DNA from: Opitutaceae bacterium
GTDB lineage: Bacteria; Verrucomicrobiota; Verrucomicrobiia; Opitutales; Opitutaceae
DNA length: 37,784 nucleotides
Assembly: GCA_005792355.1 (NCBI GenBank)
Contig: SXSC01000260.1
Location: 1 to 37,784 of the forward strand
Direction of reading: 5' to 3'
Made by a program: the position numbers and the translations under genes. Positions 1,205 to 33,654 of this stretch are shown piece after piece. Below the pieces are notes generated by a model. It saw only the letters and a program-made list of their open reading frames with translations, did no database searches and had not been told where the DNA came from. Position 1 is the first letter of the stretch. Every line of letters starts with the position of its first letter.

Positions 1205-1562
1205 TTTCACAGCGGTCCGTCGCGGCCTTCGCCAGCGGGCTGAGCCAGGCGCAACTGGTCGGCGCGGTCAGTTTTCCCAGCGGCCACCCCGGGCGCTCCC
1301 CCCACCGGGTTTGCCGCCGCCCCCGTGCGCCACCGCGACATTGACCAAGCTCCACGACCGCTTCCACGAAATCGTCGGCGCGTGTGCCGATGCGGGGAAG
1401 TCCGCGAAAAAGTAGGGTCGCTCGCGGCCAGCCGACGGGGTTCGTCGAGTAACGGAGCTTCACGCACTCATTGTGCCCGCAGATACTCGATCAATCTGAC
1501 GCACCGATGAATCTTCCGGCTTGTCTCCCGCGTCTCGGCGGGAGGCACTCCCGTCGTCCGTC
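1205..1562. other. intergenic stretch without a supported gene
   Basis: Short open frames exist on both strands, but none has a recognisable domain, a convincing start with a ribosome binding site, or a plausible composition. The only structure I can point to is the 7-bp hairpin at 1525-1544, just before the next gene. Confidence 0.5.
1525..1544 (+). promoter_or_regulatory. hairpin in the leader of the PQQ-like gene
   Basis: CTCCCGC and GCGGGAG form a perfect 7-bp stem around a 6-base loop, ending 18 bases before the ATG at 1563. The 3' arm contains a GGGAGG purine run that resembles a ribosome binding site, but it is too far from the ATG to be one with confidence. There is no T-run, so it is not an obvious terminator. 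A role in translation control is only a suggestion. Confidence 0.3.
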
Positions 1563-2972
1563 ATGTCACGTCGCAACAGTTTGTTCTCCGGCTTCCACGC
1601 CCCCGTTTTCGTGGCGGTGGCCGCGATCGCGGCGCTGGTGGTTTGGCTGACGTGGTCCGGCTACGGCGACCTCCAACCCCGCCAGCCCGGCACTGATCGC
1701 GCTCCCGACGGCGAAGGAGCCACGGGCACGAATCCCGTCCTCGCGGGGAAGCGCCTTCCGGGCGAGGCGCAGGCCGCCGCGCTCGAAGGTTCCTGGCCGG
1801 CCTTTCGCGGACCCAATCGCGACGGCGTCAGCCCGGAGCGAACCCCGCTCGCCCGCACGTGGGGACCGGCGGGCCCGCGCGAATTGTGGTCGATCGAGGT
1901 CGGCGAGGGCTATGGCGGCGCGGCGGTGGACCGGGGTCGCGTTTTCCTGATGGATTATGCGCGCGCCGATCGGCAGAGCGCGTTGCGCTGCCTCTCACTC
2001 GCCGACGGTCGCGAGATCTGGCGCTACGCGTATCCGCTGGCGGTCAAACGCAACCACGGTGTGACCCGCACGGTGCCGTCCGTCTCCGATCCGTACGTGG
2101 TGGCGATGGATCCGAAGTGCCACGTCGTCTGCACCGATGCCGCGAGCGGAGAATTGCGCTGGGGCCTCAACCTCGGGCGCGAATACGGCGCCACGGTGCC
2201 GCCGTGGTACACCGGACAATGCCCGCTGATCGATGGCGACAAGGTGATTCTCGCCCCGGCAGGCAACGGGGCTCTGCTAATCGCCGTCGAACTGGCGACG
2301 GGCAAACTGATTTGGAAAACGCCGAATCCCCGCGGCTGGAAGATGACCCACTCCTCGATCATGCCGCTCGAATGGAGCGGACGCCGCATGTACGTCTACT
2401 GCGGCAGCGGCGGGGTGGTCGGCGTGGCGGCAAACGACGGGACGTTGCTCTGGGACACCACCGAGTGGAAGATCAGCATCGCCACGGTGCCGTCACCCCT
2501 CGTGTTGGCGCAGGGCCGCGTGTTTCTCTCCGGCGGCTACAATGCGGGCAGCCTGATGCTCGAGCTGCGCGAAGACGCCGGGAAAATCGTGCCGCACACC
2601 GTCTTTCGCCTGCCGCCGGAAACCTTCGGCGCCACCCAACACTCGCCGGTGGTAGTGCAGGGCCGGCTCTATGGCATCCGGGCCAACGGTCACTTCGTTT
2701 GCCTCGACCCCCAGGGCAAGCTGGTCTGGTCCAGCGGCGCCGCCGGTCAGTTTGGACTGGGCCCATTCCTCGTGGCGGCCGGACTTGGCTTCGCGCTCAA
2801 CGACAACGGAATGTTGAGCCTGTTCGAGGCGCCCGCGGAAAAATTCAACCTGCTGGCAAAGGCCCAAGTGCTCAAGGGCCGCGAATCGTGGGGCCCGATG
2901 GCACTCGCCGGCGGCCGCCTGATTGTGCGCGATTTCACCCGGGTGGTGTGCCTCGACGTTGCGGCGAAGTAA
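1563..2972 (+). CDS. membrane-anchored PQQ-like beta-propeller protein
   Basis: This 469-residue protein begins at the ATG at 1563, which gives a short basic N-terminus and one hydrophobic segment (about residues 13-31). A TTG start at 1521 is possible but would only add a poorly composed extension. After a Pro/Gly-rich linker comes the WPAFRGPNRDG motif that opens many PQQ-like (BamB/quinoprotein-type) propellers in Verrucomicrobiota and Planctomycetota. It is followed by repeated blades of the type 'VVCTDAASGELRW', 'LIAVELATGKLIWKT' and 'VVGVAANDGTLLWDT'. The propeller should lie outside the cytoplasmic membrane. I see no dehydrogenase catalytic residues, so a scaffold, binding or redox-partner role is more likely than an enzyme. 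It precedes the redox cluster by about 300 bp and resembles the propeller protein at 6687. Confidence 0.88.
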   Translation: MSRRNSLFSGFHAPVFVAVAAIAALVVWLTWSGYGDLQPRQPGTDRAPDGEGATGTNPVLAGKRLPGEAQAAALEGSWPAFRGPNRDGVSPERTPLARTWGPAGPRELWSIEVGEGYGGAAVDRGRVFLMDYARADRQSALRCLSLADGREIWRYAYPLAVKRNHGVTRTVPSVSDPYVVAMDPKCHVVCTDAASGELRWGLNLGREYGATVPPWYTGQCPLIDGDKVILAPAGNGALLIAVELATGKLIWKTPNPRGWKMTHSSIMPLEWSGRRMYVYCGSGGVVGVAANDGTLLWDTTEWKISIATVPSPLVLAQGRVFLSGGYNAGSLMLELREDAGKIVPHTVFRLPPETFGATQHSPVVVQGRLYGIRANGHFVCLDPQGKLVWSSGAAGQFGLGPFLVAAGLGFALNDNGMLSLFEAPAEKFNLLAKAQVLKGRESWGPMALAGGRLIVRDFTRVVCLDVAAK

Positions 2973-2976
2973 CCAG

Positions 2977-3159
2977 GATCGCTTTCGCGAAAACCAGGCT
3001 CACCCCAGTCTCCACCTGGAGCGGTTGCGCAACGATTCTCGGGCTTGGTCCGTTCGGGTGACGATCAACTATCGCGCCGTTGCGCGGCGCAACGGGGAGG
3101 AATGGATTTGGGTTTGGATCGGCAGTCACCGTGATTTCCATCGGGAGTTTCCCGCCTGA
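2977..3159 (+). pseudogene. RelE/HigB-type toxin remnant (C-terminal part only)
   Basis: Directly after the stop of the PQQ-like gene, an open frame with no usable start reads F-R-E-N-Q-A-HPSLHLERL, then WSVRVTINYRAVARR, then WVWIGSHRDFHREF, and ends at 3157-3159. The order 'NPxHPSLxxKRL...WSVRIxxxYRA...WxWIGSHxDYxRLL' is the usual C-terminal half of RelE/ParE/HigB-like toxins. The N-terminal half (about 30-40 residues) is absent because the PQQ-like coding sequence occupies that position. No antitoxin gene follows. I read it as the decayed remnant of a toxin-antitoxin module. The family assignment rests on motif recognition alone. Confidence 0.6.
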
Positions 3160-3226
3160 TATCAGTGCGGCCGCAGAGTGAACCACCCTGCCTCCCGCCA
3201 ACATCTGCGGCAAGCTGGGCAACGGG

Positions 3227-3245
3227 TGCGCAGTGAAACTGCGCA
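3227..3245 (+). terminator. hairpin 20 bp upstream of the redox operon
   Basis: TGCGCAGT and ACTGCGCA form a perfect 8-bp stem with a GAA loop, followed by TCATTT. It could terminate transcription coming from the PQQ-like gene and the toxin remnant, or be a leader structure of the next operon. The T-run is weak. Confidence 0.4.
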
Positions 3246-3256
3246 TCATTTGGCAT

Positions 3257-3268
3257 CATGACGTCATG
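3257..3268. promoter_or_regulatory. 12-bp perfect palindrome covering the start codon of the first redox-operon gene
   Basis: The sequence CATGACGTCATG is its own reverse complement, and its last three bases are the ATG start at 3266. Such a dyad at a start codon is placed like a repressor operator. The protein that would bind it is unknown. A chance palindrome of this length is uncommon but possible. Confidence 0.35.
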
Positions 3269-3511
3269 CCCCAGACCGAGTCCCACGCGTCAGCACCACG
3301 CCGGGAGTTTCTCCGCGACGCTCTTCGTTATTCGGTGCTCGCGGGGCTCGGCGCTCTGGTCGCGTCCACCGTCGCCCGTCGCGGCCCGCTCACCGGTTCC
3401 GTGTGCCCGGGATCGGGCGAATGCTCCCAATGCTCCCGCTCCCTTGGCTGCAACCTGCCTCGGAACAAGCGCGCCAACCCAAAACCCCTGCCACCCCTCC
3501 GCCCGCCATGA
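3266..3511 (+). CDS. small Tat-type protein with four clustered cysteines
   Basis: This 81-residue protein is not a recognised family. It starts with a twin-arginine-like signal: Arg-Arg-Glu-Phe-Leu at residues 12-16, then a hydrophobic stretch to about residue 36. The mature part holds Cys47, Cys53, Cys56 and Cys62 (C-x5-C-x2-C-x5-C) in a short Gly/Ser-rich segment, then a Pro/Lys-rich tail. A metal or iron-sulfur site is plausible but unproven. Its stop overlaps the start of the next gene (ATGA), and the following two genes also encode Tat substrates. It is therefore very likely the first gene of the redox operon and may be a small periplasmic component of the same complex. Confidence 0.7.
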   Translation: MPQTESHASAPRREFLRDALRYSVLAGLGALVASTVARRGPLTGSVCPGSGECSQCSRSLGCNLPRNKRANPKPLPPLRPP

Positions 3512-4530
3512 AAACGCCCCCATCCGATCCGTCCTTCTCCCGTCGTCAGTTCGTGCGAAAGGTGGCCCGGGGCGCCATCTGGGCCGGAGCCTCCGCCTAC
3601 GCCCAAACGGCCGCCCATGCCGCCGAAACCAACCCATTCGCCTACGATGTGAAACGATTCAGCCGCACCGATCCCAAGCTGATCGGCTGGCACGAGGTCA
3701 GCCGGCGCACCTGTCCGATCAAAGACGCCCGCCGGCTCGCCATCGGACCCGACGACACGATCTACGTGGCCGCCGGTACGCAGATCCTCCGATGGGCCGC
3801 GACCGGCGAACGCCCCCATCTCGAGCTCGGCGCTCCCGTGCGCTGCATTGGCGTGGCCTTGGATGGCGTGCTCTTCGTCGGGCTCACCGATCGCCTCGCG
3901 ATCTTCGACGCCGCCGGCCGCCGCCAGACCGACTGGCCGGCGCCCGGACCCAAGACGTGGTTCACCGGCCTCGCCGTTTCCGATCGCGACGTGTTCGCCG
4001 CGGATTCCGGCCAGCGCCTCGTCTGGCGTTATGATCGGTCGGGCCGCGTGCTCGGTCGCATCGGCGCCCGCGATCCGGCGCGCGGCGTGCCCGGGTTCGT
4101 GCTGCCCAGTCCGTTCCTGGATGTGAAGCTGCATGCCGACGGTCTGCTGCGGATCAACAACACCGGCCGGCACCGCGTCGAGGCCTACACGATCGACGGC
4201 GATTTCGAACTGGCCTGGGGCGAGGCGTCCGCCGCGATCCACGGGTTCTGCGGCTGCTGCAATCCCATCGCCCTCACCCTGCTGCCGGATGGCCGCACCG
4301 TGACCTGCGAAAAGGGCCTCCCGCGGGTGAAGGTCCACCGCCCCGACGGCACGTTCGAATCGGTCGTCGCGGGCACGGAAACCTTCGCGGAAAACGTGCG
4401 GCAATGTACCAATCCCAACGACTGCACGCGCGGCGGCCTCGATGTCGCCGTCGACTCACGCGGGCGTATCCATATTCTGGACCGCGTGACCGGCGAGGTG
4501 CGCACGTTGCAACCGGGGGCCCGCGCATGA
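3508..4530 (+). CDS. Tat-exported NHL/SMP-30-like beta-propeller protein
   Basis: The ATG at 3508 overlaps the previous stop and gives a 340-residue protein. It has a clear twin-arginine signal: SRRQFVRKVARG at residues 11-22, a hydrophobic core, and an Ala-x-Ala-type cleavage near residue 39. The rest reads as propeller blades of the NHL type: 'RLAIGPDDTIYVAAGTQILRW', 'DVFAADSGQRLVWRYDRSGRVL', 'VKLHADGLLRINNTGRHRVEAY', 'DVAVDSRGRIHILDRVTGEVRT'. A Cys-rich turn, FCGCCNP, lies near residue 250, and two further Cys occur before the last blade. Tat export implies folding, or perhaps cofactor insertion, before transport. The cofactor and ligand are unknown. The stop overlaps the start of the ferredoxin gene (ATGA), so the two are translationally coupled. 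Confidence 0.82.
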   Translation: MKTPPSDPSFSRRQFVRKVARGAIWAGASAYAQTAAHAAETNPFAYDVKRFSRTDPKLIGWHEVSRRTCPIKDARRLAIGPDDTIYVAAGTQILRWAATGERPHLELGAPVRCIGVALDGVLFVGLTDRLAIFDAAGRRQTDWPAPGPKTWFTGLAVSDRDVFAADSGQRLVWRYDRSGRVLGRIGARDPARGVPGFVLPSPFLDVKLHADGLLRINNTGRHRVEAYTIDGDFELAWGEASAAIHGFCGCCNPIALTLLPDGRTVTCEKGLPRVKVHRPDGTFESVVAGTETFAENVRQCTNPNDCTRGGLDVAVDSRGRIHILDRVTGEVRTLQPGARA

Positions 4531-5096
4531 ATGCCGGGTCGGGCGGTGCGCCGGTCAACCGCCGGCAGTTTCTGCGCGCCGGCGCCCGCGCGCTGGCGCT
4601 GGTCGGGGCCGGCGGCCTCGCGGGTCTCCTGGCCACCCGGGCGGGCGCCCAGACGCTGGTGTGGCAGATTGATCCGGCGAAGTGTGTGAACTGCGGCAAC
4701 TGCGCCACCCAGTGCGTCCTGAAGCAATCGGCGGTGAAATGCGTGCACGCCTTCGCGCTGTGCGGCTATTGCCAGCTCTGCACCGGCTACTTCGAGCCCG
4801 AACCCAACGCCCTGACGACCGCCGCGGAAAACCAGCTCTGCCCCACCGCGGCCATCATCCGCACCTACGTCGAGGATCCGTATTATGAATACACGATCGA
4901 CGAGTCACGGTGCATCGGGTGCGCCAAGTGCGTCGAGGGCTGCGCGCGCTTCGGCAACGGTTCCCTCTTCCTCCAAATCCGGCACGACCGTTGCGTAAAC
5001 TGCAACGAATGCGCCATCGCCCGCTCCTGCCCGACCGAGGCCATCCAGCGCGTGCCGGTGGGCCAGCCGTACCGCCTGAAGACGGATGCGCATTAG
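4527..5096 (+). CDS. Tat-exported polyferredoxin, NapG-like
   Basis: This 189-residue protein starts at 4527 (ATGA overlap with the gene before). It has the twin-arginine motif NRRQFLRAG at residues 11-19 and a hydrophobic segment to about residue 38, so it should act in the periplasm. Four cysteine groups follow: CVNCGNCATQC (53-63), Cys72/79/82/85 with Cys105, CIGCAKCVEGC (129-139) and CVNCNECAIARSC (156-168). They are consistent with about four [4Fe-4S] clusters. NapG, which passes electrons from NapH to periplasmic nitrate reductase, has the same build, but no nap catalytic gene is present here. The gene for a NapH-like membrane protein starts 3 bp downstream, which supports a NapGH-like pair. 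It could instead be related to other exported ferredoxins of the NosR or Qrc type. Confidence 0.88.
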   Translation: MNAGSGGAPVNRRQFLRAGARALALVGAGGLAGLLATRAGAQTLVWQIDPAKCVNCGNCATQCVLKQSAVKCVHAFALCGYCQLCTGYFEPEPNALTTAAENQLCPTAAIIRTYVEDPYYEYTIDESRCIGCAKCVEGCARFGNGSLFLQIRHDRCVNCNECAIARSCPTEAIQRVPVGQPYRLKTDAH

Positions 5097-5098
5097 TC

Positions 5099-6448
5099 AT
5101 GCTCCGCCGCGCGCTCTTCTTCCTCGGCCTGGTCTGGGCGCTGGGCGCCGCGGCGCAATCCCGTTTCCCACCGCCGGAGTTCGAGGGCGGTCATCAACTG
5201 CCGGGGACCACCACGCCGGCCGCGCGTTTGGTCGGGTTGCAGTACGTCGATCTCGCGGTCCTCGTCACCGCGCTGGGTGTCGCCACCTGGCTGGCCCACC
5301 GCTCGCGCTCGCGGCGGGGAATGACCGTCCTGTCGATCTTCTCCCTGGGCTATTTCGGTTTCTATCGCGAGGGCTGCATCTGCTCGATCGGTTCGCTGCA
5401 AAACGTCGCGCTGACGCTGTTCGACCGGTCTTACACGATCCCGCTGACCGTGCTCGCCTTCTTCCTCGGGCCGATCGTGGTGGCCCTCTTCGGCGGACGC
5501 ACCTTTTGCGCCGCCGTCTGCCCGCACGGCGCGTTGCAGGATCTGGTGTTGCTTAAACCGCTGCGCGTGCCGGCGTGGCTGGAGCACGGACTCGGGGTGA
5601 TTCCGTTTCTGTTTTTGGGCGCAGGCGCAATCCTCGCCGCGACCGGCTGCGGTTTCATCATCTGCCGCTACGATCCGTTTGTGCCGCTCTTCCGGCTTTC
5701 CGGATCGCTGACCCTGCTCACCCTCGGCGCCGCGTTCGTCGTGGTGGGCATGTTTGTCGGCCGCCCCTACTGTCGTTTTTTGTGTCCCTACGGCGCCTTG
5801 CTCCGGCTCGCCGCCCTGGCGGCGAAGTGGCGCATCCGGGTCACCCCGGATGTCTGCACGCAGTGCCGGCTCTGCGAACACGCCTGTCCCTATGGCGCGA
5901 TGCGCGAACCCACCCCCGCGGGTGCCCCGGCGGAAACGCCGGCCGTGGAGCGCCGGCGCCTCACCTGGTGGTTGCTCGGCCTGCCGCTGCTGATCGCCGC
6001 CGGTGCTCTCCTCGGATCGCGGCTCGGCCCGGCCGCGGCGCAATTGCATCCCACCGTCGCGCTCGCCGAGCGTTACCTCGGCAACGAAAAGTCACCGGCC
6101 AACTTCCCCCCCATGACCGCGGAGGCCCTGTCGCTGGAACGCGCCGCGGTCGATCCCGATACGTTGCTCGCGTCGGCCCGGAACATCCGCCAGCGGATGG
6201 CGCTCGCGGGCTGGCTCTTCGGCGGCTGGGCGGGCCTGGTCGTCGGGCTGAAGCTGATTGCGCTCTCGCTGCGCGTGACTCGCACCGATTTCGAACCGGA
6301 CCGCGGCGCCTGCGTGGCGTGCGCCCGCTGTTTCCTGTCCTGCCCCAACGAACGCCTCCGCCTCGGCCTGCCGCCCGAACCGGCCGGCTCCGCCGCGGCC
6401 GCGGTGCCGGGCGCATCCGCCGGGCCCGCCGCAACCATTGCGACTTAG
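5099..6448 (+). CDS. NapH/NosR-like membrane 4Fe-4S protein
   Basis: This 449-residue protein starts with a signal-like hydrophobic segment (residues 3-20), then has about five to seven membrane segments (near 48-66, 112-133, 166-188, 203-222, 288-305 and 370-392). It carries the two CxxxCP motifs typical of NapH/NosR-type proteins, FCAAVCPHGALQ (136-147) and YCRFLCPYGALL (224-235). A four-Cys ferredoxin motif CTQCRLCEHACP (253-264) and a second, C-terminal one, CVACARCFLSCP (405-416), follow. Relatives move electrons between the quinone pool or cytoplasmic donors and periplasmic ferredoxins. Here the obvious periplasmic partner is the Tat ferredoxin encoded just upstream, 2 bp away. A perfect hairpin terminator follows about 60 bp downstream. 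Confidence 0.88.
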   Translation: MLRRALFFLGLVWALGAAAQSRFPPPEFEGGHQLPGTTTPAARLVGLQYVDLAVLVTALGVATWLAHRSRSRRGMTVLSIFSLGYFGFYREGCICSIGSLQNVALTLFDRSYTIPLTVLAFFLGPIVVALFGGRTFCAAVCPHGALQDLVLLKPLRVPAWLEHGLGVIPFLFLGAGAILAATGCGFIICRYDPFVPLFRLSGSLTLLTLGAAFVVVGMFVGRPYCRFLCPYGALLRLAALAAKWRIRVTPDVCTQCRLCEHACPYGAMREPTPAGAPAETPAVERRRLTWWLLGLPLLIAAGALLGSRLGPAAAQLHPTVALAERYLGNEKSPANFPPMTAEALSLERAAVDPDTLLASARNIRQRMALAGWLFGGWAGLVVGLKLIALSLRVTRTDFEPDRGACVACARCFLSCPNERLRLGLPPEPAGSAAAAVPGASAGPAATIAT

Positions 6449-6506
6449 CCATGGCCATGCTGTCGATGTGCGTTTTACCCCTGAATTCGAAACCACTGAA
6501 AGGTGG

Positions 6507-6530
6507 AACCCGATGTCCTCATCGGGTTTT
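6507..6530 (+). terminator. intrinsic terminator after the NapGH-like genes
   Basis: AACCCGATG and CATCGGGTT form a perfect 9-bp stem with a TCCT loop. The T-run is part of, and just after, the 3' arm (GGGTTTT). This has the classic form of a Rho-independent terminator. It separates the operon starting at 3266 from the genes starting at 6687. Confidence 0.75.
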
Positions 6531-6605
6531 GCGCCGTACGCTCTCCACTCCGCCCGTGGGGGACAACGGGCTCCACCGCTCATTGATTCGATCCGATTTC
6601 TGGAG

Positions 6606-6644
6606 GGGCGCTTGCCAAGCGCCCGGGTGGCTTCGCCGCACCCC
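6606..6644. repeat. REP-like double hairpin
   Basis: GGGCGCTTG and CAAGCGCCC form a perfect 9-bp dyad around a single C (6606-6624). Immediately after it comes a second imperfect hairpin with GGGTG/GCACCC arms around a CTTCG core. Two adjacent GC-rich hairpins in an intergenic gap are typical of REP-type repeats scattered through a genome. No second copy is in this window, so the repeat status is an inference. Confidence 0.4.
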
Positions 6645-6686
6645 GGCAGTTGGAAGCCGTCGATCCAAGAAACCCGCGAACCGACC

Positions 6687-8438
6687 ATGACGCCCCCGTC
6701 ACCCACCACGATTCATCGCGCCGCCGTCGCCACCGCCGGCGTCGCGGCCGCCCTCGTGCTGACGGTCGCCACGGTCCTGCTCACCCTGCACTTCACGGCC
6801 ACGACGAACGATCCGTGGAAATCCCCGCAGCTCCTCGAGCTCAAGGAGCAGTTGCGCCAGGCCCCCAAGGACGAGGCGGTCAAGACGCGTATCCGGGAAC
6901 TGGATTTTCAGTTCCGGCAGAGTTACGTGCGGCGGCTGCGACTGGGAGCGACCGGCGGCTGGCTGCTGCTGGCCGGGACCGTCGTGCTGGTCTTCGCCCT
7001 GCAAACCGCCGGCGAGGCGCGGAAACGCCTGCCGCAGCCCAGGCCCGACCCCGCCGCCGCGGCCAACGCCGCGCGGCGCGCCGCCCACTCCCGGCGCGCC
7101 GTGGTGCTCGCCGCCGCCGCCTGCGCCGGTGGCCTGCTGGCCGTCAGCTGGGGCGTGCGCTCGCAGTTTTCCCGTCCGCCCGGCGGCGGGGCAACCGCCG
7201 TCGCCGGGTCGGCGTCGACGCCTCCCCTGCCATCCGCGGAGGAATTTGCCCGCAACTGGCCGCGCTTCCGCGGCCCCGATGGCGGCGGCACCGCGGCCCC
7301 GGAGGCGCCGTTGCACTGGGACGCGGCGACCGGAGCGGGTGTGGCCTGGAAATCCGCCGTGCCCGTCCCGGGCTTCAATTCCCCGATTGTCTGGGGCGAC
7401 CGGGTGTTTGTGTCCGGCGCGACGCGCGACCAACGGGTGGTGTTCTGCTTCGACACCGCGAACGGGGCCCTGGTCTGGCAATGCGTCATCGCGCTCCCGC
7501 CGGGACCGGGCGCCGCGGCGCTCGATCTGTCGGAGGAGACTGGATACGCTGCGTCGACACTCGCGACCGACGGCCGGCACGTGTACGCGATTTTCGGCCA
7601 CGGCGATCTCACGGCCGTCACCTTCGCCGGCCGGGTGGCCTGGACCAGGCATCTCGGCGTGCCGCGCAATCCCTTCGGCCACGCCACCTCGCTGGCGGTG
7701 TGGCAGGGCCGCGTGATCGTGCAGTATGATCAGGGCGAGAGCGCCGCGAAGCAATCCCGTCTCTTTGCCTTCGACGGCGCCAGCGGCCGCCTGCTCTGGG
7801 AAAAAACGCGGCCGATTTCCAGTTCGTGGGCGACGCCGATTGTCGTCGAGGCGGCGGGCCGGACGCAGATCATCACGCTCGGCGTGCCCCTGGCGATCGC
7901 GTATGCGTTTGCCGACGGGGCCGAGTTGTGGAGCGCGAGGGTGATGGAAGGCGAAGTGACGCCCTCCCCGGTTTTCGCGGGCGGACTCGTCCTCATAATT
8001 AATCCCGAACATTCGCTCATCGCGATCAAGCCGGATGGCGCGGGTGATGTGACGGCGACGCATGTCGCCTGGCATACGGAAGAGAGCATGCCCGACGTGA
8101 CGAGCCCCGTCAGCGACGGCAAGTGGGCCTTCGCCGTGAACAGCGGGGGCGACCTCTTCTGTTTCGAGACCAAGGCGGGCGCGAAAGTCTGGAGCAAGGA
8201 ACTGGATACGGGCGTGCAGGCCTCGCCGGCGATCTTCGGAGGCAGGCTTTATGTCACTGCCACCAACGGCACGACCATCGTGGCGGCGGTGGGCGCGGAG
8301 TACCGCGAGCTCGCCCGCAACGGGCTGGGAGAAAAAGTTTACGCCTCGCCCGCGCTCGCCGGCGGGCGGCTGTACCTGCGCGGTGAGAAGCATCTTTTCT
8401 GCCTGAACGGGAGCGCGACACCCGCCTCCAGACCCTGA
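6687..8438 (+). CDS. multi-span membrane protein with PQQ-like beta-propeller
   Basis: I chose the ATG at 6687; the frame is open further upstream, but that part covers the terminator and the REP-like hairpins. The product has 583 residues. Hydrophobic segments lie at about 12-36, 88-107 and 138-156. Between the first two is a charged helix (LELKEQLRQAPKDEAVK), and after the third a Gly/Pro linker leads into the WPRFRGPDGGG motif of PQQ-like propellers. Blades include 'VVFCFDTANGALVWQCV', 'RLFAFDGASGRLLWEK', 'LAIAYAFADGAELWSARV' and 'LFCFETKAGAKVWSKEL'. It differs from the propeller at 1563 by the three-segment membrane part. The propeller is probably on the outer face of the cytoplasmic membrane. 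Three bases separate its stop from the NuoE-NuoF gene, so it is in one operon with the NAD(H) module. Confidence 0.85.
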   Translation: MTPPSPTTIHRAAVATAGVAAALVLTVATVLLTLHFTATTNDPWKSPQLLELKEQLRQAPKDEAVKTRIRELDFQFRQSYVRRLRLGATGGWLLLAGTVVLVFALQTAGEARKRLPQPRPDPAAAANAARRAAHSRRAVVLAAAACAGGLLAVSWGVRSQFSRPPGGGATAVAGSASTPPLPSAEEFARNWPRFRGPDGGGTAAPEAPLHWDAATGAGVAWKSAVPVPGFNSPIVWGDRVFVSGATRDQRVVFCFDTANGALVWQCVIALPPGPGAAALDLSEETGYAASTLATDGRHVYAIFGHGDLTAVTFAGRVAWTRHLGVPRNPFGHATSLAVWQGRVIVQYDQGESAAKQSRLFAFDGASGRLLWEKTRPISSSWATPIVVEAAGRTQIITLGVPLAIAYAFADGAELWSARVMEGEVTPSPVFAGGLVLIINPEHSLIAIKPDGAGDVTATHVAWHTEESMPDVTSPVSDGKWAFAVNSGGDLFCFETKAGAKVWSKELDTGVQASPAIFGGRLYVTATNGTTIVAAVGAEYRELARNGLGEKVYASPALAGGRLYLRGEKHLFCLNGSATPASRP

Positions 8439-8441
8439 GCC

Positions 8442-10802
8442 ATGTCCACCGTCGAACTCCAACCCGTCGAGGAGGCCATCGCGAAGATCGGACGCAAGCC
8501 GGAGTCGTTGATCCCAATCCTGCAGCGGTTGCAGAACCACTATGGCTACCTGCCGCAGGAGGCGCTGGAGCACGTGTGCGCGCTGACCGAGATCCGGCCC
8601 GCGGACGTAACGGGGGTGGCGTCGTTCTACGACATGTTCCGGCACGCGCCGGTCGGCAAACACCTCGTGCGCGTCTGCAAGGGGACGGCCTGCCACGTCT
8701 CGGGCGCGGATCGGATCGAAGAGGCGCTGCGGCTGCACCTGCACATCCCGGCCGGGACCGACACCGACGCGGCCCGCGAGTTCACGGTGGAGCCCGTGTC
8801 GTGCGTTGGTTGCTGCACCCTGGCACCGGTGGTGACCATCGACGGCACGACCATCGGCCACACCAAACCGGAGCAGGTGCCGGCGATGGTCCGGGAATTT
8901 CTCGCGCAACAGGTGCAGCCCGTCGAGCTGCGTTCAACCGAGGAAGCGGCACCACCGGTGGCCGGAACGAACGCCACCATCCACGTCGGGCTCGGCTCGT
9001 GCTGCATGGCGAAGGGCAGCGACCGGCTGTTTCACGCGTTGCACGACAGCGCGGCCCGCTCGGGAGCCAAGATCAACGTGAAGCGGGTTGGCTGCGTCGG
9101 CATGTGCCATCGCACGCCGCTGATCGAGGTGGCCCTGCCCGGAGGTGGCAAGCGCTTCTACGCCGACCTCACGCCGGATCACGCGAGCGCGCTCATCCGG
9201 CGGCACTTCCAACCGCGCGGCATCGTCGGCCGGGCGACGCAACTCTGGCAGCGGGCGCTCGACGGCCTGCTGCTCGACGTGGCGCCGCCGGGCGAGCAGG
9301 TGGCGCAGGCCGAGCTGACGATGCGCGATCCCGGCGTGAACGCGTTTCTCGGGCGCCAGGTGCACATCGCCACCGAAGATTTCGGCCACCTGGATCCACT
9401 CGACCTCGATGAATACGTCGCCCACGGGGGCTTCGAGGCGCTGCAGCGGGTGCTGGGCGGCCTGCCGCCGGAGGAAGTGATCGCCACCGTGGAGCAGTCC
9501 GGTCTGCGTGGGCGCGGCGGAGCGGGATTTCCGACGGGGCAGAAATGGCGGATCATGCACGGCCAGCCCGGCACGGAAAAATTTGTCATCTGCAACGGCG
9601 ACGAAGGCGATCCCGGCGCGTTCATGGATCGCATGATCCTCGAATCGTTTCCGTACCGCGTGATCGAGGGCATGGCGATTGCCGCGCTGGCCACCGGAGC
9701 GCACGCGGGCATCTTCTACATCCGGCACGAATATCCGCTCGCGGTGCGGCGGGTGCGGACCGCCCTCGCGCTCCTCGATCGCCGCGGCTGGATCGGCGCG
9801 CGATTGCTGGGCACGGACCGGCCGTTCCACGTCTCGATCGTCGAGGGCGCCGGCGCCTTCATCTGCGGCGAGGAAACCGCCCTGATTGAGTCCATCGCTG
9901 GCCGGCGCGGCATGCCCCGGCTGCGCCCGCCGTTCCCCGCCGAATCCGGTATCCAGGGAAAACCCACGTTGGTGAACAACGTCGAGACTCTCGCGATGGT
10001 GCCGTGGATCCTGCGCCACGGCGCCGCGCGCTTCGCCGGCATCGGCACGGCGAAGAGCAAAGGGACCAAGGTCTTCGCCCTGGCCGGCCACGTGCGCCGC
10101 GGCGGATTGATCGAAGTCCCGATGGGCACCACGATTCGCGACATCGTCGAGGAGATCGGCGGCGGGGTCGGGCCCGGCCGCCGGTTCAAGGCCGTGCAGA
10201 TCGGCGGCCCCTCCGGCGGCTGCGTCCCGGCGCGGCTGGCGGACACACCGGTGGACTTCGAGTCGTTGCGCGAAGTCGGCGCCATCATGGGCTCGGGTGG
10301 CCTCGTGGTGCTCGACGACACGACGTGCATGGTGGACATCGCGCGCTACTTTCTGCAGTTCACCGAGGCTCAGTCCTGCGGCAAATGCACGTTCTGCCGC
10401 GTCGGCACCAAGCGCATGCTCGATTTGCTCGAACGCCTGTGCACCGGCCGGGCGCAACGCTCGCACCTCAAGGAACTCGAACGCCTCGCCCACCAGGTGG
10501 GTGCCGGCAGCCTCTGCGGGCTCGGCCGGACCGCACCCAATCCCGTGCTCACGACCCTGCGGTACTTCCACGACGAATACGAGGCCCACCTCCAGGGCCG
10601 CTGCCCCGCCGGCCGGTGCACCGCGCTCATCAAGTACCGGATCACGGACGCGTGCACCGGCTGCACGCTCTGTGCGCAGCACTGCCCGGTGGACGCGATT
10701 CCGCTCACACCGTACGCCCGGCACACCATCGACCTCGACCGCTGCACGCGTTGCGACACCTGTCGCAAAGTCTGCCCCTACCACGCCGTGGAGGTGACAT
10801 GA
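8442..10802 (+). CDS. NuoE-NuoF-ferredoxin fusion, NAD(H):acceptor flavo-iron-sulfur subunit
   Basis: This 786-residue protein joins parts usually encoded separately. Residues 1-155 are NuoE/HydC-like, with the [2Fe-2S] ligands Cys79, Cys84, Cys121 and Cys125. Residues 175-255 are a second thioredoxin-like ferredoxin (Cys187, Cys218, Cys222), as found at the N-terminus of HydB/HndC proteins. Residues 300-720 are NuoF: GRGGAGFPTGQKW at 357-369, the FMN/NADH site NGDEGDPGAFMDR, and the [4Fe-4S] motif SCGKCTFC with Cys692. The end holds two bacterial ferredoxin motifs (CTGCTLCAQHC, CTRCDTCRKVC). It is the NAD(H)-reactive subunit of a complex such as those of bifurcating hydrogenases or NAD-linked formate dehydrogenases. 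Neither catalytic subunit is encoded here. The stop overlaps the next start (ATGA). Confidence 0.93.
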   Translation: MSTVELQPVEEAIAKIGRKPESLIPILQRLQNHYGYLPQEALEHVCALTEIRPADVTGVASFYDMFRHAPVGKHLVRVCKGTACHVSGADRIEEALRLHLHIPAGTDTDAAREFTVEPVSCVGCCTLAPVVTIDGTTIGHTKPEQVPAMVREFLAQQVQPVELRSTEEAAPPVAGTNATIHVGLGSCCMAKGSDRLFHALHDSAARSGAKINVKRVGCVGMCHRTPLIEVALPGGGKRFYADLTPDHASALIRRHFQPRGIVGRATQLWQRALDGLLLDVAPPGEQVAQAELTMRDPGVNAFLGRQVHIATEDFGHLDPLDLDEYVAHGGFEALQRVLGGLPPEEVIATVEQSGLRGRGGAGFPTGQKWRIMHGQPGTEKFVICNGDEGDPGAFMDRMILESFPYRVIEGMAIAALATGAHAGIFYIRHEYPLAVRRVRTALALLDRRGWIGARLLGTDRPFHVSIVEGAGAFICGEETALIESIAGRRGMPRLRPPFPAESGIQGKPTLVNNVETLAMVPWILRHGAARFAGIGTAKSKGTKVFALAGHVRRGGLIEVPMGTTIRDIVEEIGGGVGPGRRFKAVQIGGPSGGCVPARLADTPVDFESLREVGAIMGSGGLVVLDDTTCMVDIARYFLQFTEAQSCGKCTFCRVGTKRMLDLLERLCTGRAQRSHLKELERLAHQVGAGSLCGLGRTAPNPVLTTLRYFHDEYEAHLQGRCPAGRCTALIKYRITDACTGCTLCAQHCPVDAIPLTPYARHTIDLDRCTRCDTCRKVCPYHAVEVT

Positions 10803-12406
10803 GTGCCGTGCCGATTCACATCGACGGCCGTGAAGTGGCCGTGTCCCCCGGGCAAACTGTGCTCGCCGCCGCCCGCCAGCTCGGCCTCGACATCCCCACG
10901 CTCTGTCATCTCGAGCAATGCGGCCCGTTGACGACCTGCCTCGTCTGCCTCGTGAAAATCAACGGCCGACTCGTGCCCTCCTGCGGCGTGGTCGCCACGC
11001 CGGGGATGGTGGTGGAAAGCGAAACCGAAGAGGTGCACACGGCGCGTCGCACCGCGTTGGAATTGCTGTTCAGCGATCACGTCGGCGACTGCCTCTCGCC
11101 CTGCAATTTGCTGTGCCCGCTCCGGCTCAACATTCCCGTGATGATCCGGCAGATCGAGTCGGGCGAACTCGGCGCCGCCACCGCCACCGTGCGCCAGTCC
11201 CTGCCACTGGCGGCCGTGCTCGGCCGGTTGTGTCATCATCCCTGTGAGAAGGGCTGCCGGCGCGGCGCGAACGACGACCCCGCGGCCATCCGGGAAATGG
11301 AACGTCACGTCGCCGATCACGACCTCGCCCAGGCGGAGCCCTACCGGCCGCCGGTGGCGCGCGACGGTGGCCGCTCGGTGGCGGTGATCGGCGCCGGGCC
11401 CACCGGCCTCGCCGCGGCGTGGTTCTTGCGCCGGCAGGGCCATGCCGTCGACCTCTTCGATCGCCATCCCCGCCCCGGCGGTTCGCTGCGCATTTTGGAG
11501 GAAACGGCCTTGCCGCACCACGTGCTCTCGGCCGAGCTCGACGGCGTGATGGCGCTGGGAGTTCGTTTTCACGGCGGAGCGGAGTTGGGCGGGACGCTCG
11601 CGTTGGCCGAGTTGTCGGTTCGCCACGATGCCGTGGTGCTGGCCGTGGGCGAGGAGGCGAAAGCCGACGGCGCGGCCCTGGGCGTGCCAGTGACGGAGCA
11701 CGGCCTCGCGGCGGATCCGAACACCTGCCAGACGACGTTGCCGGGGGTCTTTGCCGCCGGCGCCGCGGTCAAGCCGGTCAAGCACCTTGTCCGGGCTCTG
11801 GCCGAGGGCCGCGCCGTCGCCGACTGCGTTGATCTCTTCCTGCGTGGGGCCACGGTGCGCCGCCCCGACAAGCCGTTCAGCAGCATCATGGGCCGGCTCG
11901 ATCCCGGGGAGCTGAGGACTTTTCTCCAGCACGGAAGTCTTCGCGCCAAAGCGTCGCCGTGCAGTGCGTGCGCGGCGGGCCTGAGCCGGCAGGAAGCCGA
12001 GTGCGAGGCGTCGCGTTGCCTGCATTGCGATTGCCGCTCCTCGGGCAACTGCGTCCTGCAGCACTATGGCCAGGTCTACGGCGCCAACGCCGACCGCTTC
12101 CGCGCGAAACGCCGGCCCTTTGAGGAACAGGTGCAGCTCGGCGGCGTGATTTTTGAGCCGGGCAAGTGCATCCTCTGCGGAATCTGCGTGAAGCTCACGG
12201 AGCTCGCCCGCGAACCGCTCGGGCTGACGTTTGTCGGTCGCGGTTTCGAGGTCCGGATCGGCGCGGCGCTCAACCGCACGGTGGCCGAGGGTCTGCAGCA
12301 GGTCGCCGCCGAGGTCGTGCACCAATGCCCCACCGGGGCGCTGTGCTTCGCCTCGGACCGGGAGAAAAAACCCGGGGCCCCGGCGGTCTTGTCACGTAAT
12401 ACGTGA
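10799..12406 (+). CDS. [2Fe-2S] / truncated GltD-like / NuoG-like iron-sulfur flavoprotein
   Basis: This 535-residue protein is a mosaic. Residues 1-75 are a NuoG-type [2Fe-2S] domain with Cys36, Cys47, Cys50 and Cys62. The region 95-160 has CLSPCNLLC and CHHPCEKGC, the latter typical of the GltD-type Fe-S domain. At 194-222 there is a dinucleotide fold with GAGPTG. The NAD(P)H-binding part expected between the two FAD halves of a GltD protein is missing. The FAD-closing motif, normally GVFAxGD, reads GVFAAGA, so the Asp is lost. The C-terminus (385-520) has several Cys and KCILCGICVK with a later CP, like NuoG. It probably relays electrons between the NuoF fusion and another partner. Whether it still binds FAD is uncertain. 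Confidence 0.85.
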   Translation: MSAVPIHIDGREVAVSPGQTVLAAARQLGLDIPTLCHLEQCGPLTTCLVCLVKINGRLVPSCGVVATPGMVVESETEEVHTARRTALELLFSDHVGDCLSPCNLLCPLRLNIPVMIRQIESGELGAATATVRQSLPLAAVLGRLCHHPCEKGCRRGANDDPAAIREMERHVADHDLAQAEPYRPPVARDGGRSVAVIGAGPTGLAAAWFLRRQGHAVDLFDRHPRPGGSLRILEETALPHHVLSAELDGVMALGVRFHGGAELGGTLALAELSVRHDAVVLAVGEEAKADGAALGVPVTEHGLAADPNTCQTTLPGVFAAGAAVKPVKHLVRALAEGRAVADCVDLFLRGATVRRPDKPFSSIMGRLDPGELRTFLQHGSLRAKASPCSACAAGLSRQEAECEASRCLHCDCRSSGNCVLQHYGQVYGANADRFRAKRRPFEEQVQLGGVIFEPGKCILCGICVKLTELAREPLGLTFVGRGFEVRIGAALNRTVAEGLQQVAAEVVHQCPTGALCFASDREKKPGAPAVLSRNT

Positions 12407-12410: not shown

Positions 12411-12531
12411 TTGATCCGTCGGTTTTTTGGCGAAACGCGAAGTTTCCCGCCGATTCCCGGTTCCGGGCGCACCCCGCCGGACGAGAGAAACGTTGCAGCG
12501 GGACGGCCATTTTCCTCTGCTTGGTTCTCCC

Positions 12532-13410
12532 ATGTCGCGCCCCACGGTTTGCATTTCGCTCGCGCTCTTCGCGTTCGGTGGCTCCCAGGCCGCTGCGATG
12601 AACCTGCGCATGGAAGCCTCGACCGCCTGGGCGGAGAATATCTCGCGTTCCTCGGCCGCCTCCGACTGGCGCGACGCGCAAAAATTCGAAATGAACACCG
12701 CGCTTTCGCTCCTGCGCGAATGGCACACCGGGTTTGTCACCAGCGGCGAGTTGGGCGTCGGTTTCGAGCGCGTGCCGAGATACACCAAGCTCGACACCTT
12801 CACCGCCGGAACCGCCGTGCAGGTGCGCCAGAAATTCGGCTTCGGCGCCTATGCGCCCGTGCTCTCGCTCGACGCCGGGCTCCGCGCCCGCGCCGCCCAG
12901 CTCGACGCCAGCGACGGCTGGACCGCCACCGCCGGCCTGCGCCTCGCCAAGCGGCTCACGCCATCCTGGCGCGTCGCGGCGACCGGTGACTGGCAGCAAC
13001 ATTACGCCCGTAACGCCATCTTCGATACCAAGCACCACCGCGCCTTCGGCACCGTTACCTGGGACTTCAACGAACGTTGGTCGCTCACCCACGGCAACGG
13101 GCGCCTCTGGGGCAGCTTCACCGCCAACGCCTCGGCGGCCGTCTGGTCCCGCGCCCTCTCGGGTGCGCTCGGGAGCAACATCTCCACTTATTACAACACC
13201 ATCCACTGGGGCGTCACCGGCACCTACGGCCCCCGCTGGGTCTCGTACCTCGTCGACGGTCGGATCAGTTTTTGGTGGCTCGAGCTCTCGCCCGCAATCG
13301 GCCGCAATACCTCGCTGCCGCTCCGCTACGACAGTCTCTTTTCGGTCAACAAGGTCGGCGTGAAATACCGGCAGGATGTCTGGACCGTGCAGGTGCTGCA
13401 TCGCTTCTGA
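12532..13410 (+). CDS. outer-membrane-like beta-barrel protein of unknown function
   Basis: The ATG at 12532 gives a 292-residue protein with a signal peptide (about residues 1-22, ending Ala-Ala-Ala). The rest is rich in alternating polar and hydrophobic stretches with many Trp and Tyr, for example 'WRVAATGDWQQHYARNAIF' and 'VKYRQDVWTVQVLHRF'. It ends in Phe, as outer-membrane barrels recognised by BAM do. I do not recognise a named family. About 57 bp separate it from the cupredoxin-like gene, which is in turn fused by overlap to a cyclase gene. A shared operon and a role in the same sensory or copper-related process are likely. A porin or structural role without signalling is also possible. 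Confidence 0.75.
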   Translation: MSRPTVCISLALFAFGGSQAAAMNLRMEASTAWAENISRSSAASDWRDAQKFEMNTALSLLREWHTGFVTSGELGVGFERVPRYTKLDTFTAGTAVQVRQKFGFGAYAPVLSLDAGLRARAAQLDASDGWTATAGLRLAKRLTPSWRVAATGDWQQHYARNAIFDTKHHRAFGTVTWDFNERWSLTHGNGRLWGSFTANASAAVWSRALSGALGSNISTYYNTIHWGVTGTYGPRWVSYLVDGRISFWWLELSPAIGRNTSLPLRYDSLFSVNKVGVKYRQDVWTVQVLHRF

Positions 13411-14121: not shown

Positions 14122-15836
14122 AGCTGCGCCCGCGAAGTTTTCGCGCGAAGCTGCTGCTGCTCTTCGTGCTGGTGGTCGTGGCCGCGCAATTCGCCACGTG
14201 GTTGATCGTGTCGCGGGCGCATCGCCGCCAGGCCCGGGATCTGATCGGGGAGGAACTGCTCCGGGCGGCCATGGCGTTCGACCGGGTCGTGGCCGAGCGC
14301 AACGAACTCCTCGCCGCCGCCGCCGCCATCGCCGCGCGCGGCTACGAATTCAAACAGCTCTTCGCCGGCGACATCGACGTGCCCACGCTTCGCTCCGCGC
14401 TGCCCAGCCTGCAGATCTGGACCAAGGCGAGTGTCGTGGCGGCGCTGACGGTCGAAGCCAAACTGCTCGCCTCGACCTCCCCCGCGATGGTGGAGGGCCG
14501 GGTTTATGACCAGCTCGTCGCACGCGCCGAGGCCGACCCGAGCCCCAACCAGACTGCGCACGGCTACGGCTACTTTGACGGCCAGCTCTACTCGCTCGCG
14601 ATTGCACCGGTGCGCGCCCCGGAACCGGTCGCCTGGCTCGTGATCGGTTTCCGCATCGACGCTGACTTCGCCCGGACCCGCAAAGCCGAGACCGGCATCG
14701 AACTCACCTTCTTCGATCACCAGCATCACCCGCTCGCCACCACCTTGCCACCGGCCACGGTCGCCGCACTCGCCCCCGCGCTCCCGTCGCTCGGTGAATC
14801 GAAACTCGGCGTCGCGGTGCCACTGGCCGGCGAGACGGCGTTGGTGGCCACCCGCCGGCTCCCGGCGGGCGACGGCCGGTTTGCCACCCTCGCCCTGCAA
14901 TACTCGCTCGACGAAAAACTGCGGCCCGCCCGCGAAGCGGAAAACCTGCTGCTCCTGACCGCCACCGGCAGCCTGGCGCTCGCGGTCTTCCTCAGCCTCA
15001 GCTTTGCCGGCCACCTCACCCGCCCGATCGAGGCCCTCGTCGGCCACACCCGCCGCATCGCCGCCGGCGACTACCGCGTCCGCAACACGTCCTATCGCGA
15101 AGACGAACTCGGCCGCCTCTCCGAGGCCTTTGACCAGATGTCGCGCGGCCTCGCCGAACGCGACAAGGTGCGCGATCTGCTCGACAAAAACGTCTCCCCC
15201 GAAGTCGCGACGCAACTTCTCCGCGACGGGGCCGCCCTCGGCGGCCAGGAGCGGGCGGTGACGATCCTTTTCGCCGACCTCCGTGGTTTCACCACGCTCA
15301 GTGAAAATCTCACGCCACCCGAACTGCTCGCGCTGCTCAATCGCTACCTCGATCGCATGAGCACCGCCATCGAGTCGCAGGGCGGCGTGATCGACAAATT
15401 CATCGGCGACGCGATCATGGCCCTCTTCGGCGCTCCCGTCGCGCAGGACGACGCGCCCGACCGCGCCCTCGCCGCGGCCGTCGCGATGGAGCGCGCTCTC
15501 GTGACGCTCAACACCGAACTCGCCGCCGAAGGCATCGCCCCGCTCGCGATCGGCATCGGCGTCAACACCGCCCGCGTCGTCGCCGGCAACATCGGTTCGA
15601 CCCGCCGCCTCAATTACTCGGTGATCGGCGACGGCGTAAACGTCGCCTCCCGCCTCCAGTCGCTCACCCGCACTCCGGAATTTCACACCAACATCATCAC
15701 GAGCGCCGCGACCCTGGCCGCCTGCCGGCAGCTTCCGTCGCCCGCCGGGAGCCCGCCGGCCCCGACCACCCGCCCGCTCGGCACCGTTCCGGTCAAGGGC
15801 CGCGCCGAACCGGTGGAAATTTTTGCCGTCGGTTAA
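14118..15836 (+). CDS. transmembrane sensor-HAMP class III adenylate/guanylate cyclase
   Basis: The GTG at 14118 overlaps the preceding stop and gives 572 residues. Order: membrane helix 11-32, a periplasmic sensor of about 245 residues that looks like a double-Cache-type domain, membrane helix 278-297, HAMP 298-350, then a CHD cyclase domain from about 378. Catalytic features are intact: the metal Asp387 in FADLRGFTTLSE, Lys427 and Asp431 in DKFIGDAIMALFGAP, and YSVIGDGVNVASR with the transition-state Asn508 and Arg512. Ser501 takes the position where Thr or Asp usually sits as the second substrate-selecting residue. Together with Lys427, this favours ATP and cAMP. The gene ends an operon with the barrel and copper proteins, so the sensor may read their state. 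Confidence 0.93.
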   Translation: MKLRPRSFRAKLLLLFVLVVVAAQFATWLIVSRAHRRQARDLIGEELLRAAMAFDRVVAERNELLAAAAAIAARGYEFKQLFAGDIDVPTLRSALPSLQIWTKASVVAALTVEAKLLASTSPAMVEGRVYDQLVARAEADPSPNQTAHGYGYFDGQLYSLAIAPVRAPEPVAWLVIGFRIDADFARTRKAETGIELTFFDHQHHPLATTLPPATVAALAPALPSLGESKLGVAVPLAGETALVATRRLPAGDGRFATLALQYSLDEKLRPAREAENLLLLTATGSLALAVFLSLSFAGHLTRPIEALVGHTRRIAAGDYRVRNTSYREDELGRLSEAFDQMSRGLAERDKVRDLLDKNVSPEVATQLLRDGAALGGQERAVTILFADLRGFTTLSENLTPPELLALLNRYLDRMSTAIESQGGVIDKFIGDAIMALFGAPVAQDDAPDRALAAAVAMERALVTLNTELAAEGIAPLAIGIGVNTARVVAGNIGSTRRLNYSVIGDGVNVASRLQSLTRTPEFHTNIITSAATLAACRQLPSPAGSPPAPTTRPLGTVPVKGRAEPVEIFAVG

Positions 15837-15845
15837 CCCGTCGCC

Positions 15846-15862
15846 CATCGGTCCCACCGATG
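15846..15862 (+). terminator. hairpin after the cyclase gene
   Basis: CATCGGT and ACCGATG form a perfect 7-bp stem with a CCC loop, 9 bp after the stop. A run of A rather than T follows on this strand, so it is a weak candidate for forward termination. Confidence 0.4.
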
Positions 15863-15948
15863 AAAATTCCGAGAGTTTAGATGACCGATTCCGGCTTTTG
15901 AATTTTCTGTCGCCACCCGCTTCTCCGCTCCTCTTCTCTCCATCTCCG

Positions 15949-23921: not shown

Positions 23922-24463
23922 CCGGCTGACCGGTATTCCGCCCCGCGGCAGCATGATCCTTTTGGCGCGGGCGGGGGAATGGGTCGCAGGGGATTAAATT
24001 CCTTGGCCGTTGCTGACCCCGTGGGATTGGCCGCCGTTGCGGTAGTGGCCCCGGTCTGGAGCGCCGCAATGATGCAAGACGCGGGCGATCAAGAAAACGC
24101 AGCCGCGACTCGACGAGTTTCAATTTTTGATATCCTCGGCAAAATCCGGGCTGGGATGAGGAAAAGATCAGCAGCGTGACCCTGAACCGAACTCGCCAGG
24201 TGCGATGATCAGCGAACGGTTGTTACGATGCAGTTTGCCGTTGCTCGTTTACGGCGGAAATCAGGAGCGGCTTAAGGGTCTTGAACCCGGCTGTCGGACT
24301 CCACGAAGAAGTCCGCGAGGGAAACCGAAGCGGGCGGGCTGATGGCTGCGCAGTCGTAGCGGTCTCGTACGGGCAAACTCATGGTCCGGAGATGATGAGG
24401 AGGATCGACAGTCCAGGCGGCCGCGTTTACAAACTCCGCAGTTCGACCAGGTCCGAAACAGAA
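23922..24463. other. long gap before the fucosidase gene
   Basis: These 540 bp are visibly less GC-rich in places than the flanking genes. Small open frames (for example about 23979-24179, +) have no recognisable content. A 5-bp stem ACCGG/CCGGT with a CTGA loop sits directly after the PPC gene and may be a weak terminator. I see no RNA gene, though the long leader could hold regulatory elements. Confidence 0.4.
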
Positions 24464-31754: not shown

Positions 31755-31812
31755 CCTGCGCTCGCAAACACCCCTCCCCTTTCACCCTCCCTCGCACTTT
31801 TCCCCCACCTTC

Positions 31813-33651: not shown

Positions 33652-33654
33652 AGC

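Follow-up and report, generated by a model that had tools for sequence, protein, structure and literature searches.

Enzymes of the Bfu family (HydABC-like) are built on a core of iron–sulfur (Fe–S) clusters, B1 to B5 and C1, in which B2 carries a histidine ligand that is missing in non-bifurcating homologues; a BfuA-like subunit leads from this core to a third partner, the known or proposed ones being H2, formate, NADP, F420, aldehydes, quinones and others (PMC9304861, cited throughout from excerpts). In the Stn transhydrogenase (StnABC, Nfn-Bfu), the bifurcating StnAB core is reported to be fed from the NADPH–flavin adenine dinucleotide (FAD) site of StnC, by way of an Fe–S chain (excerpts of PMC10482914). 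NapGH, NosR and the flavinylated NapH-like systems combine a Fer4_5 membrane protein, bearing two CX3CP and two [4Fe-4S] motifs, with an exported polyferredoxin (excerpts of PMC8238504). We describe here a gene set in which relatives of both kinds stand together, on a stretch of 37,784 nucleotides from an Opitutaceae bacterium (assembly GCA_005792355.1, contig SXSC01000260.1, positions 1 to 37,784), referred to below as the window. Each half of this module is of a known kind, but their combination, the eroded BfuA-like subunit and a link to isoprenoid genes appear to be new; they were not recognised in the open-licence literature searched, nor in the excerpts of PMC11406978. The words 'NapH' and 'PQQ' do not occur in the main text of PMC9304861. 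The excerpts of that paper leave 17 BfuB clades without an assigned function, and the BfuB of the window may belong to one of these, seen there without interpretation.

We hold, with belief and doubt about evenly balanced, that the set would encode a membrane-anchored member of the Bfu family in which a periplasmic partner replaces H2, formate or NADP. NADH would exchange electrons with a BfuC-BfuB fusion protein (NuoEF below) at flavin mononucleotide (FMN), and ferredoxin would do so through the C-terminal 2x[4Fe-4S] domain of the same protein. From this core, the clusters of a StnC/BfuA-like protein (StnC'), acting as an Fe–S relay, would lead to the cytoplasmic clusters of a NapH-like membrane protein, and a membrane-spanning step would lead on to a polyferredoxin exported by the twin-arginine translocation (Tat) pathway. 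Propeller and four-cysteine proteins outside would be the end point, or the origin, of the electrons, with a periplasmic or lipid substrate as third partner. This proposal starts from the parts and their order, the conserved diagnostic ligands, the loss of an NADPH domain with its neighbouring Fe–S ligands kept, and co-occurrence among genomes, all of them read from sequences. The original prediction, made from the nucleotides of the window and their open reading frames (ORFs), had put forward an NAD(H)-to-periplasm redox module lacking a hydrogenase, a formate dehydrogenase and a classical reductase. Our analysis supports this; what had been missed are the Bfu core, the eroded StnC/BfuA subunit, an upstream propeller and the isoprenoid cluster of relatives.

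Nearest structural relatives and ligands identify the cytoplasmic half as a core of the Bfu type (HydBC/StnAB); its earlier assignment to a redox module stands, and that to the generic NuoEF/NuoG type has to be given up. The PDB sequences nearest to NuoEF are the B subunits of Nfn-Bfu/Stn (688, 685 and 666 bits), behind which rank the HydB of a NiFe-hydrogenase (627 bits) and other HydB chains; the nearest subunits for both NuoEF and StnC' come from the StnABC/Nfn-Bfu entries 8oh5, 9bov and 9n5u. As in the Bfu family, the core ligands include the B2 histidine: C629, H716, C721 and C726 are kept in all 64 aligned NuoEF rows (63 distinct), and C667 is cysteine in 58, threonine in four and arginine in two, these positions being assigned by order and spacing from the description in the PMC9304861 excerpts, not by structure alignment. 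The cysteines of B1, B3, B4 and C1 and those of the fused NuoE domain (BfuC [2Fe-2S]) occur in 64/64 rows, and the BfuB FMN loop is present. Such a core makes ferredoxin a probable third party, and the core would then confurcate NADH and reduced ferredoxin. The protein could instead belong to a non-bifurcating NADH dehydrogenase, passing electrons from NADH through the NapH-like protein to the periplasm with ferredoxin uninvolved. The loss of the StnC' flavin site in several relatives speaks for this, as does cluster B5 of the Trx-like domain, whose four cysteines are complete in 52 of the 64 rows, the window included, serine standing at two ligand positions in the other 12. We nevertheless think it quite improbable, given that the B2 histidine, three B2 cysteines and all B3 and B4 cysteines persist in every row, whereas the known non-bifurcating homologues in the PMC9304861 excerpts are without B2 to B5.

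The StnC' protein of the window aligns with StnC/NfnA chains over their N-terminal and middle parts and shares with StnABC/Nfn-Bfu the layout of [2Fe-2S], GltD-type and NuoG-like Fe–S parts. It differs by lacking the NADPH domain and the FdhF-like C-terminus: its alignment with 9bov_A jumps from residue 288 to residue 417 of that chain, dropping the NADPH Rossmann domain, and ends near residue 672 of 1178. The window module differs further by the fusion of A- and B-type subunits and by the addition of membrane and periplasmic partners. What had been called a GltD-like protein thus retains the FAD half without the NAD(P)H-binding Rossmann domain, and the NuoG-like protein of the original prediction, correct as to its Fe–S parts, is better named an eroded StnC/BfuA. 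The 18 Fe–S cysteines (four of the [2Fe-2S] cluster and 14 of the GltD-type and NuoG-like parts) are present in 61/61 full-length rows (kept from 65 matches, window included; 60 distinct), and the NADPH domain is absent in 57 of them, the window among these. The flavin part is also shrunken or gone in six (L048, L054, L058, L066, L067, L068). A further copy in genome G180, cut by the contig end, consists of propeller, NuoEF and a StnC' without flavin domain, and in L156, L158, L159 and L160 only the Fer2 and NuoG-like ends are left, joined to the end of NuoEF. The second FAD motif of the window protein reads GVFAAGAAV, in contrast to the GGD or AGD of the four relatives that are full-length. 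Since NADPH and flavin domains were lost with the Fe–S cysteines kept, StnC' looks like an Fe–S relay to the NapH-like protein, the simplest reading being an electron link that joins the Bfu core to another protein. In a NuoEF tree, built quickly and rooted at the midpoint, the eroded rows fall in three parts and some sit on long branches; the erosion therefore looks repeated.

Genes of the module in the window
Gene product	Position	Strand	Features and basis
PQQ/BamB-like beta-propeller	1521..2972	+	483 aa from TTG start; PF13360, E 1.9e-26
Small Tat four-cysteine protein	3266..3511	+	C-x5-C-x2-C-x5-C; ORF and sequence; no Pfam match
Tat-exported six-bladed NHL propeller	3508..4530	+	invariant GCCNP motif; predicted fold; no Pfam match
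Tat-exported polyferredoxin, NapG-like in role	4527..5096	+	16-17 conserved Cys; Pfam Fer4
NapH/NosR-like membrane Fe–S protein	5096..6448	+	GTG at 5096, ATG at 5099; PF12801
Membrane-anchored PQQ/BamB-like propeller	~6687..8438	+	separable N-terminal membrane domain; PF13360
BfuC-BfuB (HydC-HydB, StnA-StnB) fusion, NuoEF	8442..10802	+	NuoE [2Fe-2S], Trx-like [2Fe-2S], FMN/NADH domain, [4Fe-4S], B2 [2Fe-2S] ligands, C-terminal 2x[4Fe-4S]; Pfam and PDB sequences
StnC/BfuA-like putative Fe–S relay, StnC'	10799..12406	+	[2Fe-2S], Fer4_20 cysteines, GltD-like FAD half without NADPH domain, NuoG-like [4Fe-4S] part; Pfam and PDB sequences

The eight co-oriented genes span positions 1521–12406, a gap of about 290 bases separating the first propeller gene from the other seven. 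Domains were assigned by comparison with Pfam and PDB sequences and Tat signals by eye. ORFs, Pfam and PDB sequences bear out the seven genes first listed, their common strand, order and mostly few-base overlaps; the members stand, and the extent has to be widened by the upstream propeller, which brings the conserved set to eight. No CXXCH-coding site was found in the window; the gene set is therefore without a c-type haem motif, which distinguishes it from multihaem extracellular electron transfer.

Where other Bfu enzymes have their third partner, the window module would have the NapH-like protein, the exported polyferredoxin and the propellers. The NapH-like protein has several membrane helices, matches PF12801 with 57.1 bits (cut-off 22) and has an AlphaFold pLDDT (predicted local distance difference test) of 87.7. 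Hydropathy and charge place its two CX3CP and two [4Fe-4S] motifs in the cytoplasm, and three further conserved cysteines, C94, C96 and C190 (residue 1 being the codon at 5096; NapH itself was not compared), at the periplasmic face; motif cysteines and these three are kept in 101–102 of 102 rows (98 distinct). The scores stay far below the curated cut-offs of the NapH family (TIGR02163, 38.9 against 213.05 bits) and of MauM/NapG (TIGR00397, 22.2 against 178.85 bits), and no recurring reductase was seen, in contrast to NapGH and NosR. Unlike in the flavinylated systems of the PMC8238504 excerpts, no FMN-binding domain is among the Pfam matches of the NapH-like protein.

The polyferredoxin has 16 cysteines in 33/33 aligned rows and a 17th in 31. 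In 56 of 80 loci, a frame close to the polyferredoxin gene shows a Tat four-cysteine pattern, RR-x-[FLV]...C-x(3-9)-C-x2-C-x(3-8)-C; in L139 this pattern stands inside the start of the polyferredoxin frame, as if fused. The membrane propeller announced as PQQ-like does match PF13360, though its nearest relative, BamB, is matched only weakly (E 5.7e-5; methanol dehydrogenase 1.9e-4), and at L040:11583-11954 and L070:7831-8226 only the N-terminal membrane domain of this gene is left. Single frames of about 765–799 aa in L064 and L065 match the upstream PQQ-type and the NHL propellers, an apparent fusion. PqqC was found in 0/48 and 0/12 genomes, no positive control being matched in either search.

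The Rnf complex couples NAD, ferredoxin and the membrane, and Fe–S carriers are usually low in potential. Among the matches listed, none of the seven window proteins scored up to the curated cut-off of an Rnf model; RnfC occurs in 35 of the 48 module genomes, and the module is therefore not a simple Rnf substitute. We favour a net flow outward, on an argument of plausibility and a weak one: the carriers seen are of the Fe–S types, no linked periplasmic dehydrogenase or haem protein was seen, and Rnf, in 35 of the 48 carriers, serves NAD–ferredoxin exchange. The main alternative is the same complex running in reverse, electrons from a periplasmic or lipid donor passing inward to be bifurcated to NAD+ and ferredoxin, in electron uptake or in a low-potential oxidation. 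A periplasmic donor near -400 mV would be required, no dehydrogenase recurs among the neighbours surveyed and the window has no c-type haem motif. We consider inward flow unlikely on these grounds, mindful that Bfu enzymes are reversible (excerpts of PMC9304861) and that an oxidase, and not only a reductase, can be the partner of a NapH-like module (excerpts of PMC8238504).

The order PQQ-(Tat4C)-NHL-polyFd-NapH-PQQ-NuoEF-StnC' is repeated in other families and phyla (Verrucomicrobiota, Planctomycetota and others), in tens of loci, and is therefore not due to chance; the genes do stay together in related genomes. Loci were mapped with profiles; simple ORF-based gene finding had missed real genes. 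When 288 genomes of the phylum were searched for the NHL propeller, 55 had a match at E <=1e-3, 34 of these at <=1e-18, and the polyferredoxin profile found 48 genomes at 1e-20, with a best match in each of <=1e-58; in the genus of the window it is present in 5/27 genomes. NHL propeller, polyferredoxin and NapH-like protein occur together in 30 of 36 stretches fetched around NHL matches (33 genomes, three of them with two stretches apiece). At least 30 phylum genomes have a short StnC' among the matches listed, and the polyferredoxin is found in 29 of these 30 against 19 of the other 258; the list was read by eye and excludes the fused type of L156 and L158–L160; its borderline entry G180 proved on checking to be a true copy, and G261, without polyferredoxin and with a contig-end cut beside an unfused core, was neither classed nor counted.

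A survey of named records gave at least 556 relatives, the best 80 of which were used for loci, a choice by similarity that is biased toward close relatives. Their titles name Verrucomicrobia, Planctomycetota, Lentisphaerae, Kiritimatiellaeota, Bacteroidota, Spirochaetales, Omnitrophota, KSB1, Poribacteria and others. Almost all are metagenome-assembled genomes; the cultured Sunxiuqinia elliptica (L129) is also among them. Where these best-80 loci hold enough DNA, NuoEF follows in 50/59 and StnC' in 44/52. Many related loci have a propeller gene of about 480 aa immediately upstream of the NHL gene. Duplicate loci by contig are L052 and L142, L055 and L138, L056 and L140, and L057 and L133.

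The set could still be an ordinary accessory set for a hydrogenase or formate dehydrogenase encoded elsewhere, about half of Bfu cores being hydrogenases and others formate dehydrogenases (excerpts of PMC9304861). Contrary to this, and in keeping with the original prediction, no hydrogenase, formate dehydrogenase or reductase recurs among the 25 largest neighbour clusters of the 80 loci, inspected by eye, or, in a Pfam scan of 95 flanking ORFs, among the 25 commonest of 124 families; both surveys are partial views, limited to the neighbourhood within the carrier genomes, and the 95 ORFs come from a list of 113 that leaves out minus-strand upstream ORFs and ORFs of >=1300 aa. An accessory role seems very improbable to us. 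Neighbour families at low counts are ABC transporter, FtsX, HlyD, GFO/IDH and glycosyltransferase. A large permease-like gene, named by eye, lies upstream of extra propellers in 11 loci (e.g. L113, L130); an ABC ATPase-like neighbour gene was likewise seen by eye in 11 loci, and FtsX matched four of the 95 scanned flanking ORFs.

In relatives, gene position and co-occurrence in the sequenced genomes tie the module genetically to an isoprenoid gene cluster. In eight of the 36 loci, isoprenoid genes lie near the core, in whole or in part: a DUF116-polyprenyl synthase fusion (c7), a radical S-adenosylmethionine (SAM) protein, a two-cluster Fe–S protein and two squalene-cyclase/prenyltransferase-like proteins, one of which carries a DADDT motif, which we take to be that of class II cyclases. 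Across the 288 genomes, c7 is found in 51 by strong matches (51 of 54 matches, G084, G198 and G282, with E 1e-27 to 1e-32, being dropped post hoc), the polyferredoxin in 48 and both in 41 (Fisher p 7e-33), c7 thus occurring in 41/48 polyferredoxin genomes against 10/240 others. Nine families, assigned by hand from the genome match listing, vary in both genes; they hold 28 co-occurrences of c7 and polyferredoxin against a mean of 11.6 in within-family shuffles, a value that 0 of 20,000 shuffles reach, and RnfC in the same shuffle gives 11 against 11.8 expected. c7 is present in 16 of 144 loci, representing 14 distinct genomes, and isoprenoid and core genes adjoin on one strand in 11 of the 14 genomes with both on one stretch. 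NuoEF is in the same stretch as the isoprenoid genes in six (L054, L156–L160); L071 has, from the core, only the NHL and propeller genes within the isoprenoid stretch. The run of Fe–S protein, radical SAM, c7, prenyltransferase-like and squalene-hopene-cyclase-like genes was seen in L040, L043, L046, L054, L070, L071 and L156–L160, not all genes being detected in all eleven loci, and no description of it was recognised in the open-licence literature searched.

These data allow the speculation, tentative at present, that a flavin-eroded membrane Bfu complex merges electrons of NADH and reduced ferredoxin and delivers them in the periplasm to a dedicated isoprenoid, redox-active or reductively modified, made by the c7/radical SAM/squalene-cyclase-like cluster, whose genes stand in many carriers in one run with those of the module, with the propellers as handling site. 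The same association would suit an isoprenoid-lipid enzyme system, in which the redox half feeds the radical SAM, DUF116 and squalene-cyclase-like enzymes or their product and transmembrane transfer is an anchor only. Of 30 further module-genome entries, 17 have a clear c7, two a partial one and 11 none, the genome of the window being one of the 11; these entries include duplicates (G290 and G317 are one, and the c7 matches of G346 and G118 are identical). The four other polyferredoxin carriers in the genus of the window all have c7. A strict link is also contradicted by ten genomes with c7 and no polyferredoxin, six of them from one family in the class of the window, and by seven with polyferredoxin and no c7. 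A cytoplasmic pathway, moreover, would not need Tat export of a polyferredoxin and a propeller, and we regard a purely enzymatic system as possible but rather doubtful.

Several observations weigh against a membrane-anchored Bfu complex with a periplasmic partner, besides the serine substitutions at B5 and the plausibility argument on which outward flow leans. That the proteins of the set form one complex, and that the acceptor would be a periplasmic or lipid substrate, we infer, the former from gene order; NuoEF is present in only 15 of the 36 NHL stretches, some of which end at contig edges and others of which hold the core without NuoEF, and in some genomes NuoEF-StnC' and the polyferredoxin are on different contigs. 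StnC' keeps a full NADPH domain in 4/61 rows (L096, L105, L108, L111), and NADPH may therefore still be a partner there. In the NuoEF tree three of these rows nest inside short ones (L111 left out), so that loss and regain of the domain are both possible; the four copies might have regained it through gene replacement. GxGxxG is retained in StnC' of the window, which may therefore still bind FAD.

If the proposal is right, it would extend Bfu chemistry to the periplasm, through a third partner beyond the membrane. The erosion of NADPH and flavin domains with Fe–S ligands kept would be a natural experiment in which an enzyme becomes a wire, and the isoprenoid cluster hints at a product for which one could search. 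The conserved operon and a cultured carrier, S. elliptica, make the module testable.

The genes that flank the set in the window were not seen in the recurring order of related loci. Downstream of the set are a gene at 12427-13410 (no Pfam match) and genes for a CarboxypepD_reg protein, a HAMP-guanylate cyclase, a sulfatase and DUF1501/PSD1 proteins; the gene before the set, likewise outside the recurring order, is presumably glgB-like. Positions 119-1204 and 37052-37783, which we take to be glycogen-branching-enzyme-like stretches, lie one at each end of the window, differ in strand and are 45% identical where aligned; the latter has an Alpha-amylase_C match. A GH95-type glycoside hydrolase (24281-26938) and the sulfatase (15823-17586) suggest that the host degrades polysaccharides. 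Two adjoining Hsp70-like genes occupy 31594-36555, one of them carrying the 'DNA-K related' domain DUF3731.

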